Under the pieces are notes generated by a model. It had not been told where the DNA came from. It made no database searches and was given only the letters and a program-made list of their open reading frames with translations. DNA of 64,000 nucleotides from an uncultured Alphaproteobacteria bacterium (lineage in GTDB: Bacteria; Pseudomonadota; Alphaproteobacteria; RF32; CAG-239): contig CALXTQ010000008.1 in assembly GCA_944391485.1 (NCBI GenBank), positions 1-64,000 of the forward strand, given 5' to 3'. Below, one piece after another: positions 10,188 through 54,519 of this stretch (position 1 is its first letter; the number at the start of each line of letters is the position of its first letter). Both the position numbers and the translations under genes were made by a program.

Positions 10188-10198
10188 GGTTGGTTAAT

Positions 10199-11332
10199 AT
10201 GGAATGGCTGATTAACGTGGTTTATTATGTCGTCCCCTTCATTGTTCTGCTGGGGATTTTGGTGTTTGTGCATGAGCTGGGGCATTTTGCCGTGGCCAGA
10301 ATGTGCGGCGTTAAAGTCGAGGTCTTTTCCATCGGTTTCGGAAAAGAGCTGTACGGCTGGACGGATAAACACGGCACTAACTGGAAGCTTTCGGCAATTC
10401 CGCTGGGTGGCTACTGTCAGTTTTTGGGAGATGCCGACGCTTCATCCTCAACACAGGACGTCGAAGCCGTCAAACTGAGTGATGAGGATAAGAAATTTGC
10501 CTTTCCATACCAGAATCCTTTTAAAAAACTTGCGATAGTTCTGGCTGGGCCCGGTGCCAATTATCTTTTTGCCATTTTAGTTTTTGCCTCGATTTTTTTC
10601 TTTTTGGGAAAAATAAATTTTCCGCCGGTTGTGGGCGAGGTTTTTGAGAACAGCGCTGCCGCAAAAGCCGGGATTGTTCCGAATGACCGTATTTTAACGA
10701 TTAACGGTCATGAAATCGAGAATTTTGACGATATCCGCAGGGAAGTCGATCTGGTTACGGACGGAGAGGTAACGGTCGAGATTCTGCGCGATGGAGAAAA
10801 GCTGGCGTTGAAATTTCCGCTTGTCGAGCTTGAGGTGGCCGAACATGACGGCACAATGAGCAAGCGTCCGATGCTCGGCGTCAAATCGGTCAATGTCATC
10901 GAGGTCGAGAAAGTCGAGCTTTCGTTATGGCAGGCTTTTGCCGAAGCGGGAGCGGAAGCTTGGAATATTACGGAAGCCACGCTGCGCGGTGTCGGTCAGA
11001 TGATTACGGGAAAACGCAGCGGCGAGGAAATCGGCGGCATTATCCGCATTGCCGAGATGTCCGGAGATATTTCCAAGCAAAACGGTTTTCTTGATTTTGT
11101 CGTATTTATGGCGCTGCTGTCCATCAACCTCGGTCTTATCAATCTGTTTCCGATACCGGTTTTGGATGGCGGCCATGTTATTATTTATCTGATTGAAATC
11201 GTTACCGGAAAAGAACTGAGCCCGGGCGTCCGGGAAGGACTGTTTAAGTTTGGTTTTACGCTGATCATCGCATTGATGGTCTTTGCGACATGGAATGACT
11301 TTGTTCGTTTGTTTCACAGATGGTTTGCATAA
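10199..11332 (+). CDS. rseP: Site-2 intramembrane zinc protease RseP
   Basis: RseP cuts membrane-embedded anti-sigma factors and leftover signal peptides. The zinc motif HELGH is at residues 25-29 in the first membrane helix. A PDZ domain lies about 120-200 (GEVFENSAAAKAGIVPNDRILTI). The second metal motif is NLFPIPVLDGGH near the C-terminus. The chosen ATG at 10199 is preceded by AGGGTTGG; a TTG at 10190 is also in frame. Length is 377 aa. Substrates cannot be inferred, though an ECF sigma cassette with a single-span candidate anti-sigma protein lies at 53.1 kb in this window. Confidence 0.95.
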   Translation: MEWLINVVYYVVPFIVLLGILVFVHELGHFAVARMCGVKVEVFSIGFGKELYGWTDKHGTNWKLSAIPLGGYCQFLGDADASSSTQDVEAVKLSDEDKKFAFPYQNPFKKLAIVLAGPGANYLFAILVFASIFFFLGKINFPPVVGEVFENSAAAKAGIVPNDRILTINGHEIENFDDIRREVDLVTDGEVTVEILRDGEKLALKFPLVELEVAEHDGTMSKRPMLGVKSVNVIEVEKVELSLWQAFAEAGAEAWNITEATLRGVGQMITGKRSGEEIGGIIRIAEMSGDISKQNGFLDFVVFMALLSINLGLINLFPIPVLDGGHVIIYLIEIVTGKELSPGVREGLFKFGFTLIIALMVFATWNDFVRLFHRWFA

Positions 11333-53081: not shown

Positions 53082-53107
53082 TGAACTTTTTGCGGTGTTC
53101 TGTCGTT
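53082..53107 (+). promoter_or_regulatory. ECF-type promoter of the sigma cassette
   Basis: TGAAC (53082-53086) and CGTT (53104-53107) with a 17-base gap fit the GGAAC-N16/17-CGTT pattern of alphaproteobacterial ECF sigma promoters (first base differs). They lie 25 bases before the ATG at 53132, suggesting the sigma factor activates its own operon. Confidence 0.5.
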
Positions 53108-53131
53108 TCATATTTTGTAAGGAGGCAGAAA

Positions 53132-53392
53132 ATGGATGATATTTCTAACCTGATAAAAGAGGCAAGGCCGCTGTATTTTGCCCGCAAAAAACGCAATAAC
53201 CGGATTAAGACGGCTTTGTGTTCGCTGGTAATAATTGTGATGGTCGGGATGTTTTATCCGAGAAACAATGATTATATTTATGATTATAATTATTATTTGT
53301 TCGGAACGGATTTTTCCTGGAACGAAACAACGTCGATTATTGAAGAGATGGGCTTGCCGACGGATGACTACGGCTTGTTGATGGTAGGATAA
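53132..53392 (+). CDS. Small single-span membrane protein, probable anti-sigma factor
   Basis: An 86-aa protein with a basic cytosolic N-terminus of about 25 residues (MDDISNLIKEARPLYFARKK). One membrane span follows (TALCSLVIIVMVGMFY), then a ~45-residue outside tail rich in Asn/Tyr (NNDYIYDYNYYLFGTDF) ending EEMGLPTDDYGLLMVG. It has no zinc motif of classical anti-sigma domains. Position directly upstream of and overlapping the ECF gene by one base suggests an anti-sigma of the CnrY type. The start ATG follows AAGGAGG; the frame opens earlier at 53090. Confidence 0.6.
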   Translation: MDDISNLIKEARPLYFARKKRNNRIKTALCSLVIIVMVGMFYPRNNDYIYDYNYYLFGTDFSWNETTSIIEEMGLPTDDYGLLMVG

Positions 53393-53892
53393 TGAAAGAA
53401 ATTATAGAAGCCAACAGAAGCCGGATTAAAGCGATTATAAAAAAACTGACCGGTTCGTATAATGAAGATATTGAACAGGAAGTTTATATTAAAACGTGGA
53501 AGAATCTGGATAATTATCAGGAAAAAGGCCGCTTCAGCCAATGGATAAGCGCGTTGACAGCCAATGTCTGCCGGGATTATTTCAAGTCCAGGCAGTATAA
53601 AATGGAGGCGCGGCAGGTCGGAGGCGAAGCGCTGGAACAACTCAGAGTCGGAGGCCGGCAGGAAGAAGTGATCGACGCCAGACAAAGGCAGAAGATTATT
53701 TTGAAAGCGGTCGACGAACTGCCCCGTAAGCTGCGGCAGGTTGTCGTCTGGTACGAATTCGAGGAAATGAGCTATGACGAAATCGCCGGGAAAACAGGGG
53801 TGCCTGTCGGCACGGTTAAATCAAGACTGTTTAATGCCCGTAAAATATTGAGTGAAAAATTAAATTTTTTAAAGGAGAACAGACATGAATAA
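53392..53892 (+). CDS. ECF-family RNA polymerase sigma factor
   Basis: A 166-aa extracytoplasmic-function sigma factor. Region 2 is NEDIEQEVYIKTWKNLDNYQEKGRFSQWISALTANVCRDYFKS, binding the -10. Region 4 is LPRKLRQVVVWYEFEEMSYDEIAGKTGVPVGTVKSRLFNARKIL, the helix-turn-helix for the -35. No regions 1 or 3 exist. It is translationally coupled to the small membrane protein upstream and to the periplasmic gene downstream (8-base overlap). The trio is probably one signalling unit. Confidence 0.95.
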   Translation: MKEIIEANRSRIKAIIKKLTGSYNEDIEQEVYIKTWKNLDNYQEKGRFSQWISALTANVCRDYFKSRQYKMEARQVGGEALEQLRVGGRQEEVIDARQRQKIILKAVDELPRKLRQVVVWYEFEEMSYDEIAGKTGVPVGTVKSRLFNARKILSEKLNFLKENRHE

Positions 53893-54406
53893 AAAATTGC
53901 TGACTTTACTCTGCGCCGGCGGAATTATTGCCGGAAGCACGGTTTTTGCCCAGGAGAACGATATGCCTCCTCCGCCGCCTCCGGGACATGAACTGGATCA
54001 TCCTCTGCGTCATACGGGCCCTGATGAAAAAGGTCCGGGATTTGATCATGAATTTCATAAAAAAATGGCCGATAAATTTGCCGCGGATCTGGGGTTGACG
54101 GAGGAGCAGAAAAAAGAAGCCGACAAAATCCGCGAATCCGGCCGCGAGAAAATGAAACCCCTTATGGATGAAATGAAAATGCTGCGCGGCAAAATGGACC
54201 AGCTGAGAGAAGAAAACATGAAGGAGTTTGAAAACATTCTGACGCCCGAACAGAAAACAAAGCTCGAGCAGATGAAGAAAGACCGCAAAGATGCTTTTGA
54301 GAAAAGAAAAGCCGATCGGAAAATGAGAAGAAAACATATGCGTCCCGGCCATGTCCGCCCTGAACATCACGAGCGTCCGGCCGAACATATGCCGGAGCAT
54401 GAATAG
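53885..54406 (+). CDS. Periplasmic LTxxQ (Spy/CnrX-like) protein, His/Met-rich
   Basis: A 173-aa exported protein: signal MNKKLLTLLCAGGIIAGSTVFA, then a Pro/His segment (PPPPPPGHELDHPLRH). A helical body carries two LTxxQ motifs (LTEEQKKEADKIRESG and LTPEQKTKLEQMKK), the mark of the Spy/CpxP and metal-sensor family. It ends in a His/Met/Arg-rich tail (HMRPGHVRPEHHERPAEH). That tail suggests metal binding. Given its neighbours it may sense metal or misfolded protein and free the sigma factor, or be its target chaperone. ATG 53885 follows AAAGGAG. Confidence 0.85.
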   Translation: MNKKLLTLLCAGGIIAGSTVFAQENDMPPPPPPGHELDHPLRHTGPDEKGPGFDHEFHKKMADKFAADLGLTEEQKKEADKIRESGREKMKPLMDEMKMLRGKMDQLREENMKEFENILTPEQKTKLEQMKKDRKDAFEKRKADRKMRRKHMRPGHVRPEHHERPAEHMPEHE

Positions 54407-54420
54407 AATGCTTCCGCCGA

Positions 54421-54449
54421 TTAAGCCCCGTTGCCGGGGCTTAATTTTT
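54421..54449 (+). terminator. Terminator of the ECF cassette
   Basis: AAGCCCCG (54423-54430), a 4-base loop and CGGGGCTT (54435-54442), followed by AATTTTT. Confidence 0.8.
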
Positions 54450-54519
54450 GGGAATTTAAACTTATATTAAAAATTGGAGGATAACTTTTTTAAAAAGAAT
54501 CTTCTAGAAAGGGAAAAAA

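Follow-up and report, generated by a model that had tools for sequence, protein, structure and literature searches.

A three-gene cassette of uncultured Alphaproteobacteria: a probable ECF switch for envelope stress with a predicted minimal anti-sigma factor

What does an 86-aa single-span membrane protein do when its gene overlaps that of an ECF sigma factor, which in turn overlaps a gene for an exported LTXXQ protein? This arrangement lies in a 64,000-nucleotide stretch of DNA (hereafter the window) from an uncultured alphaproteobacterium, whose genome (G000) amounts to 1.68 Mb in 21 contigs and is 99.7% complete; it is closely related to Azospirillum sp. CAG:239 and to further MAGs of uncultured Alphaproteobacteria. 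The three overlapping genes are as first described, with the ECF gene in the middle, an overlap of 1 base between the small gene and the ECF gene, and one of 8 bases between the ECF gene and the LTXXQ gene; the start of the cassette at 53082 corresponds to the edge of its predicted promoter (Table 1). We report that the cassette is real and conserved in its clade, and that the reading which fits it best is an ECF switch responding to envelope stress, with a minimal anti-sigma from what looks like a new family. In this reading, which we consider probable, the 86-aa protein is the membrane anti-sigma of the adjoining ECF and holds the sigma until envelope stress occurs, a stress probably sensed with the Spy-like protein; release would switch on the cassette's own operon and, in G000, likely a MacAB-type operon as well.

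Table 1. Features of the cassette and a protease gene elsewhere in the window (positions in the window)
Feature	Position	Strand	Detail
Predicted ECF promoter	53083..53110	+	-35 GAAC 53083-53086, N16, -10 TCGTTTCA 53103-53110
Shine-Dalgarno-like AGGAGG of the small gene	53120..53125	+	sequence
Small gene, 86 aa, single-span protein, predicted anti-sigma factor	53132..53392	+	ATG at 53132
Predicted sigma-binding helix: cytosolic residues 1-24 with the conserved motif IS..L..EAKPLYFARK	53132..53203	+	alignment
Transmembrane segment, residues 25-41	53204..53254	+	Kyte-Doolittle 2.28
Conserved periplasmic C-terminal tag GLPTDDYGLLMVG, residues 74-86	53351..53389	+	alignment
ECF sigma factor gene, 166 aa, regions 2 and 4 only	53392..53892	+	ATG at 53392
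Exported Spy-like LTXXQ protein gene, 173 aa	53885..54406	+	ATG at 53885
First LTXXQ motif, LTEEQ	54095-54109		
Second LTXXQ motif, LTPEQ	54239-54253		
Terminator-like inverted repeat and T run, 3' of the LTXXQ gene	54420..54450	+	by eye
RseP-type site-2 protease, usual last cutter of membrane anti-sigmas	10190-11332	+	coordinates from match position

The triad extends well beyond the host genome. The small protein and the ECF were each searched against one set of 90 genomes and gave matches in 40 and 41 of them, respectively (G000 included in both), and wherever the small protein was found (40/40) the order small gene, ECF gene, LTXXQ gene is intact and directly adjacent, so that the association is not due to chance. 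The one extra ECF genome, G049, has the LTXXQ gene as well; its ECF gene lies within the first bases of a contig, so the upstream side is absent and the small gene is missing from the data. The original prediction had proposed looking for homologues of the small protein next to ECF genes: all 40 adjoin one, and a homologue without an ECF gene, which would have spoken against the prediction, occurred in none of the 40. The host's family accounts for 38 of the 40 triad genomes, and the remaining two (G071, G088) each represent a further family of the class; a set of GTDB contigs has the same arrangement at 17 of 17 loci, most of which come from these very genomes. Family members in which neither gene was matched are those of genera g3 and g5, two of genus g4 (G009, G040), and G004, G046 and G020, the last being only 59% complete.

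A Candidatus Scatocola protein is 71% identical to the small protein, and in a set of 5.8 billion proteins the family forms 935 clusters at E 0.01; among the 120 clusters listed of these 935 there is no Pfam domain, and those with a name are called hypothetical. One public record of this alphaproteobacterial cassette (P0041, P0212) is labelled as a Lactobacillaceae bacterium and is probably a mislabelled MAG. The cassette was not recognized in published descriptions among the open PMC papers searched.

The middle protein belongs to the ECF family, having regions 2 and 4 only, with both profiles over the Pfam cut-off (Sigma70_r2, 43.4 bits; r4_2, 62.1 bits), and it matches TIGR02937 at 86.7 bits (cut-off 42.9). 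Its best PDB match is E. coli RpoE (structure 1or7). Four G000 proteins score over the cut-off of the sigma70 profile, namely RpoD, two RpoH proteins and the cassette ECF; two weaker matches are response regulators. As the other three are RpoD and two RpoH, the cassette ECF is the only ECF found in this genome.

The protein encoded ahead of the ECF does have the single span claimed for it: one hydrophobic span is present in 30 of 30 aligned rows (some of them nearly identical), beginning at residue 24-27, with a net charge of +2 to +6 on its N-terminal side and of -5 to -8 on its C-terminal side. By hydropathy and charge, the protein shows the pattern of a single span with the N terminus inside. 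The commonest residue has a mean frequency of 0.83 over residues 1-24, 0.53 in the span, 0.38 over residues 42-66 and 0.79 over residues 67-86, and the positions invariant in the 30 rows include S5, E10, A11, P13, Y15, R18 and K19 at one end and G74, P76, D78, G81 and L83 at the other. The most distant members (G023, G034) keep the EAKPLY-like motif, while their tail motif decays. Changes in the small gene relative to five near relatives fall mostly at third codon positions (e.g., 18/12/36), and it thus behaves like a real protein gene.

As the original prediction held, this protein matches no named anti-sigma family; it passes the cut-off of no Pfam or NCBIfam profile at all, its sub-threshold matches being to DUF1129 (E 0.23) and to a model of pilin type (E 0.03). 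Searched against the PDB, the family found just two entries (E 1.3 and 2.8), which we take as chance, and the class I anti-sigma domain (RseA, zinc type) gave no Pfam match, with HxxxCxxC absent from the alignment by eye. Hydropathy and charge do show the traits of CnrY, a class II anti-sigma: a single span, the N terminus inside and a short cytosolic stretch of ~24 residues. We consider it quite probable that the small protein acts as an anti-sigma factor. It could conversely be a membrane recruiter or activator of the sigma, with inhibition coming from elsewhere or with the ECF controlled by transcription alone. The very short cytosolic part would suit such a role, and an AlphaFold2 model of the small protein and the ECF read as one chain reaches pLDDT 70 and pTM 0.40 with no readable interface. 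However, the known anti-sigma CnrY is also small and first in its operon, the small protein is paired with the ECF in each of the 40 genomes, and the operon encodes no other membrane protein; we find this alternative improbable. At this pTM the pair model is uninformative on binding; it places an N-terminal helix at residues 2-10, then a break at residue 11, followed by a long helix that enters the membrane. Most of the Foldseek and VIA-align matches listed for it concern the sigma portion. For residues 2-15 of the small protein, 4% of shuffles reach the observed amphipathic moment, which is only weakly unusual, compared with 16% for CnrY.

Does the sigma drive its own operon, as had been proposed? 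In 40 of 40 genomes GAAC-N16/17-CGTT stands upstream of the small gene (the scan of these loci allowed N14-17), against a background expectation of 0.004 per 90-bp window. The distance from CGTT to the start codon is 22-27 nt at 38 of these loci and 37 and 44 nt at the other two. The looser GAAC-N16/17-CGTT is present four times in the 64 kb analyzed here, while the strict GAAC-N16-TCGTTWYA occurs at two places in G000, one before the cassette and one before a MacAB-type efflux operon, with none on the reverse strand and none in the control. Allowing up to two mismatches in a longer form of the pattern adds seven sites in G000, all with two mismatches, versus three in the control. Within what promoter sequence alone can reveal, autoregulation is thereby upheld, the conservation of this element lending support to self-regulation, short of proof.

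The second strict site of G000 lies 64 nt before a gene for a MacA-type adaptor, which is followed by genes for an ABC ATPase and a MacB_PCD/FtsX permease, ~15 kb downstream of the cassette on the same contig and outside the window; at 185 bits, this MacA falls short of the equivalog cut-off (342). Following this operon, just past the window, are what by eye look like two similar membrane transporters in tandem, each of ~450 aa (L051, 5731-8527, minus strand). Upstream regions were read for 30 of 41 macA matches. The strict site precedes macA in two of the 30 (G000, G032) and GAAC-N16-TCGTT in four (G000, G032, G019, G046), of which G032, G019 and G046 are all three genomes of genus g14; in G019 and G046 the site falls behind the start of the longest open frame. 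Variants differing by one base precede macA in G044 and G045, and the macA upstream regions read in four other genomes of genus g1 have neither the strict site nor GAAC-N16-TCGTT. G046 (L100) has its GAAC-N16-TCGTT before macA without a match to the small protein or the ECF, pointing to missing assembly or to loss of the cassette.

Strict sites also precede genes for His-rich or glycine-rich exported proteins in G014, G043 and G045, and for other exported proteins in G037, G032 and G046. G014 and G043 (L057, L059) encode one more exported protein, His-rich and with a glycine-rich segment, behind a strict site of its own, ~450-470 bp before the cassette promoter, and in G032 and G046 (L062, L067) an exported protein with a glycine-rich segment is encoded behind a strict site. 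When one His-rich exported protein of G014 was searched against 48 genomes it was found in G014 alone, the carriers of the look-alikes, G043 and G045, being outside that set.

A broad regulon, by contrast, we reject. Across 50 family genomes we counted 67 sites, 28 of them at cassettes by coordinates and 39 elsewhere, versus 93 in a reversed-pattern control; with up to one mismatch, 49 genomes gave 70 sites, 30 at cassettes (G090 being counted by its sequence only) and 40 elsewhere, versus 41 in the control. Because non-cassette sites do not exceed the control, only particular sites are proposed as targets. Among 20 site-bearing stretches, chosen by eye from a larger number and including one from another family (L052), an exported or efflux gene follows the site directly in seven (L054, L055, L057, L059, L061, L062, L067), and the other 13 have it within an open frame or with no obvious gene following.

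The third protein belongs to the LTXXQ (Spy/CpxP) family, matching PF07813 at 31.8 bits (cut-off 24.3) and carrying the two motifs reported from the outset, whose residues L71, Q75, L119 and Q123 are invariant in 71 rows. Its start is signal-peptide-like by eye and leads into a Pro-rich linker. Against the PDB, the family profile finds Spy at E 5e-7, while its matches with E up to 1 contain no CnrX. Alignment with Spy leaves a middle segment of Spy without a counterpart in the cassette protein, and a structural model, confident for residues 51-150, predicts helices at 55-69, 73-117 and 121-151, with both LTXXQ motifs at the two turns and a central helix of 45 residues; a structure search with the model matched no solved fold and is uninformative on the fold. 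In three genomes of genus g4 (G023, G034, G049; L120, L121, L122) the LTXXQ protein appears by eye to start with a membrane-anchor-like segment in place of the short signal peptide, which suggests a role at the membrane.

The original prediction had left the signal as metal or envelope stress, on the model of CnrYXH, and had stressed a His/Met-rich tail on the LTXXQ protein. In a CnrYXH-type metal switch, the LTXXQ protein would bind metal through His and Met and so change the anti-sigma. The cassette has the same three roles as CnrYXH, the His/Met-rich tail is indeed present in this copy, His-rich exported proteins are encoded behind the strict sites of G014, G043 and G045, and the SigAb system is reported to respond to copper (PMC12153292). 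The tail does not hold up as a family feature, however: no His column is common to at least 10 of 21 LTXXQ rows, and the core has 0-2 His. Members of the CnrX family, for their part, have conserved His/Met metal ligands. Met 97, 104 and 112, which could suit copper, are conserved in 18, 18 and 20 of the 21 rows, leaving room for a methionine copper site and raising the metal reading slightly. Metal_resist (PF13801) gave no match to the third protein at E up to 1, and the CnrY class II anti-sigma profile (PF17524) none to the small protein, although as positive controls CnrX scores 91.2 bits and CnrY 174.9 bits; profile comparison of the LTXXQ protein with CnrX and of the small protein with CnrY likewise gave nothing. 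The linked target in G000 is, moreover, of MacAB type and not an RND metal pump. With no conserved His, similarity to Spy and not to CnrX, and no CnrY or CnrX profile match, sensing of metal in the manner of CnrX is weakened and a metal switch appears unlikely. The envelope half of the prediction is the one we prefer: the signal is rather more probably envelope stress than metal.

Homology to CnrY or CnrX is rejected for want of any Pfam, NCBIfam or profile-comparison match; the first helix of CnrY can be aligned by eye with the small protein, without gaps and at several hydrophobic positions, and profile comparison gives this no support. What does carry over is the CnrY/CnrH/CnrX-like division of roles into membrane lock, ECF and periplasmic LTXXQ protein. 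CnrYXH of Cupriavidus (pMOL28) also has a small anti-sigma gene first, an ECF and a periplasmic sensor, but differs in its order Y-X-H, in CnrY and CnrX families that are not matched here, and in that the cassette LTXXQ protein has no conserved His.

Two described systems are of a similar kind, each compared here by description and not by sequence, and the cassette would operate in much their manner. In CirY-CirZ of Phocaeicola vulgatus, a gut member of the Bacteroidales, an ECF sigma, an anti-sigma and a Spy-like chaperone are co-transcribed, and besides its own operon the sigma drives few genes (PMC13114119). The cassette resembles it as a self-driven (here, by promoter sequence) ECF/anti-sigma/Spy operon of a gut bacterium, whereas the order sigma, anti-sigma, spy and the Bacteroidales host set CirY-CirZ apart. 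In SigAb-AabA-AabB of Acinetobacter, like CnrYXH a looser analogue, AabA (107 aa, single span, TM 42-64) and its cytosolic part lower sigma activity, as does AabB alone, and the system has three direct targets (PMC12153292). That anti-sigma activity has been tested for such an analogue speaks for our reading. The system shares with the cassette an overlapping three-gene operon, a small single-span anti-sigma and a periplasmic partner, and differs in having the sigma first, a longer AabA cytosolic part and a copper response. Known anti-sigmas, CnrY among those described, contact both sigma2 and sigma4 (PMC7406223, PMC4598750); the cytosolic end of the small protein is about half the length of AabA's, which makes contacts with both hard to imagine.

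Two further comparisons concern the parts of the cassette. With Spy/CpxP (PF07813) the third protein shares the two LTXXQ motifs and the profile match to Spy, but it has no Spy middle segment, has a single 45-residue central helix, and is linked to an ECF instead of a two-component system. RpoE-RseA-RseB is likewise built from a membrane lock and a periplasmic helper, and RpoE is the best PDB match of the ECF; unlike it, the cassette has no RseA domain match, and its 86-aa protein compares with 217 aa for RseA (PMC12153292). The gene order had been called new, and lock-sigma-sensor does differ from CnrY-X-H, but ECF/anti-sigma/Spy operons are already known from the CirY-CirZ report (PMC13114119), so the cassette's kind is not new. 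What seems new is the anti-sigma family, with its very short cytosolic end and conserved C-terminal tag, and the order lock-sigma-Spy.

In the mechanism we propose, the ~24-residue cytosolic end would bind the ECF and keep the sigma at the membrane, and the LTXXQ protein would dock on the conserved periplasmic tail until unfolded proteins or membrane-active agents draw it off. CpxP with CpxA provides a model for a periplasmic helper that is drawn off, and RseB acts on RseA. With the LTXXQ proteins ranging from near neutral to basic, matching charges between them and the acidic tail would support this docking weakly at best. The uncovered tail would then be cut by an HtrA-type protease and RseP, and the freed sigma would drive its own operon and, in G000, likely the MacAB-type operon too. 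Since the anti-sigma and the sensor are made together with the sigma, such a loop would be self-limiting. Both proteases are encoded in G000, RseP at 287 bits (cut-off 147.6) and HtrA, in one full copy, at 468 bits (cut-off 416), making the proteolytic route available; both profiles also match in all 14 control genomes, and the presence of the two proteases is accordingly weak support. We see release of the sigma by proteolysis as evenly balanced against other routes.

The LTXXQ protein might also be output only, a stress chaperone, with the periplasmic tail sensing alone, for example as the ligand of a PDZ protease. In favour of this, conservation of the tail reaches nearly to the end of the protein, HtrA and RseP are encoded in G000, and Spy is an output in E. 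coli (PMC13114119). Against it, the LTXXQ gene is co-encoded in 41 of 41 operons read, and the version in three genus-g4 genomes looks by eye to be anchored in the membrane; we judge an output-only role possible but somewhat unlikely, preferring an LTXXQ protein that takes part in sensing.

A bolder formulation, which we offer tentatively, is that the small protein represents a new and the smallest class of membrane anti-sigma, in which a ~24-residue helix (IS..L..EAKPLYFARK) would lock the ECF and a near-invariant tag (GLPxDEYGLLMVG) would serve as a ligand covered by a stripped-down Spy and read by a protease, a two-ended peptide switch governing the sole ECF of a small gut genome. If true, the cassette would show how little protein suffices to lock a sigma factor, and would provide a small, tractable system in which the 13-residue periplasmic tag can be tested as a ligand with peptides. 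It would also put a name to the one ECF circuit detected in a genome from this little-studied group of uncultured Alphaproteobacteria, whose promoter sequence makes it possible to seek targets in metatranscriptomes.
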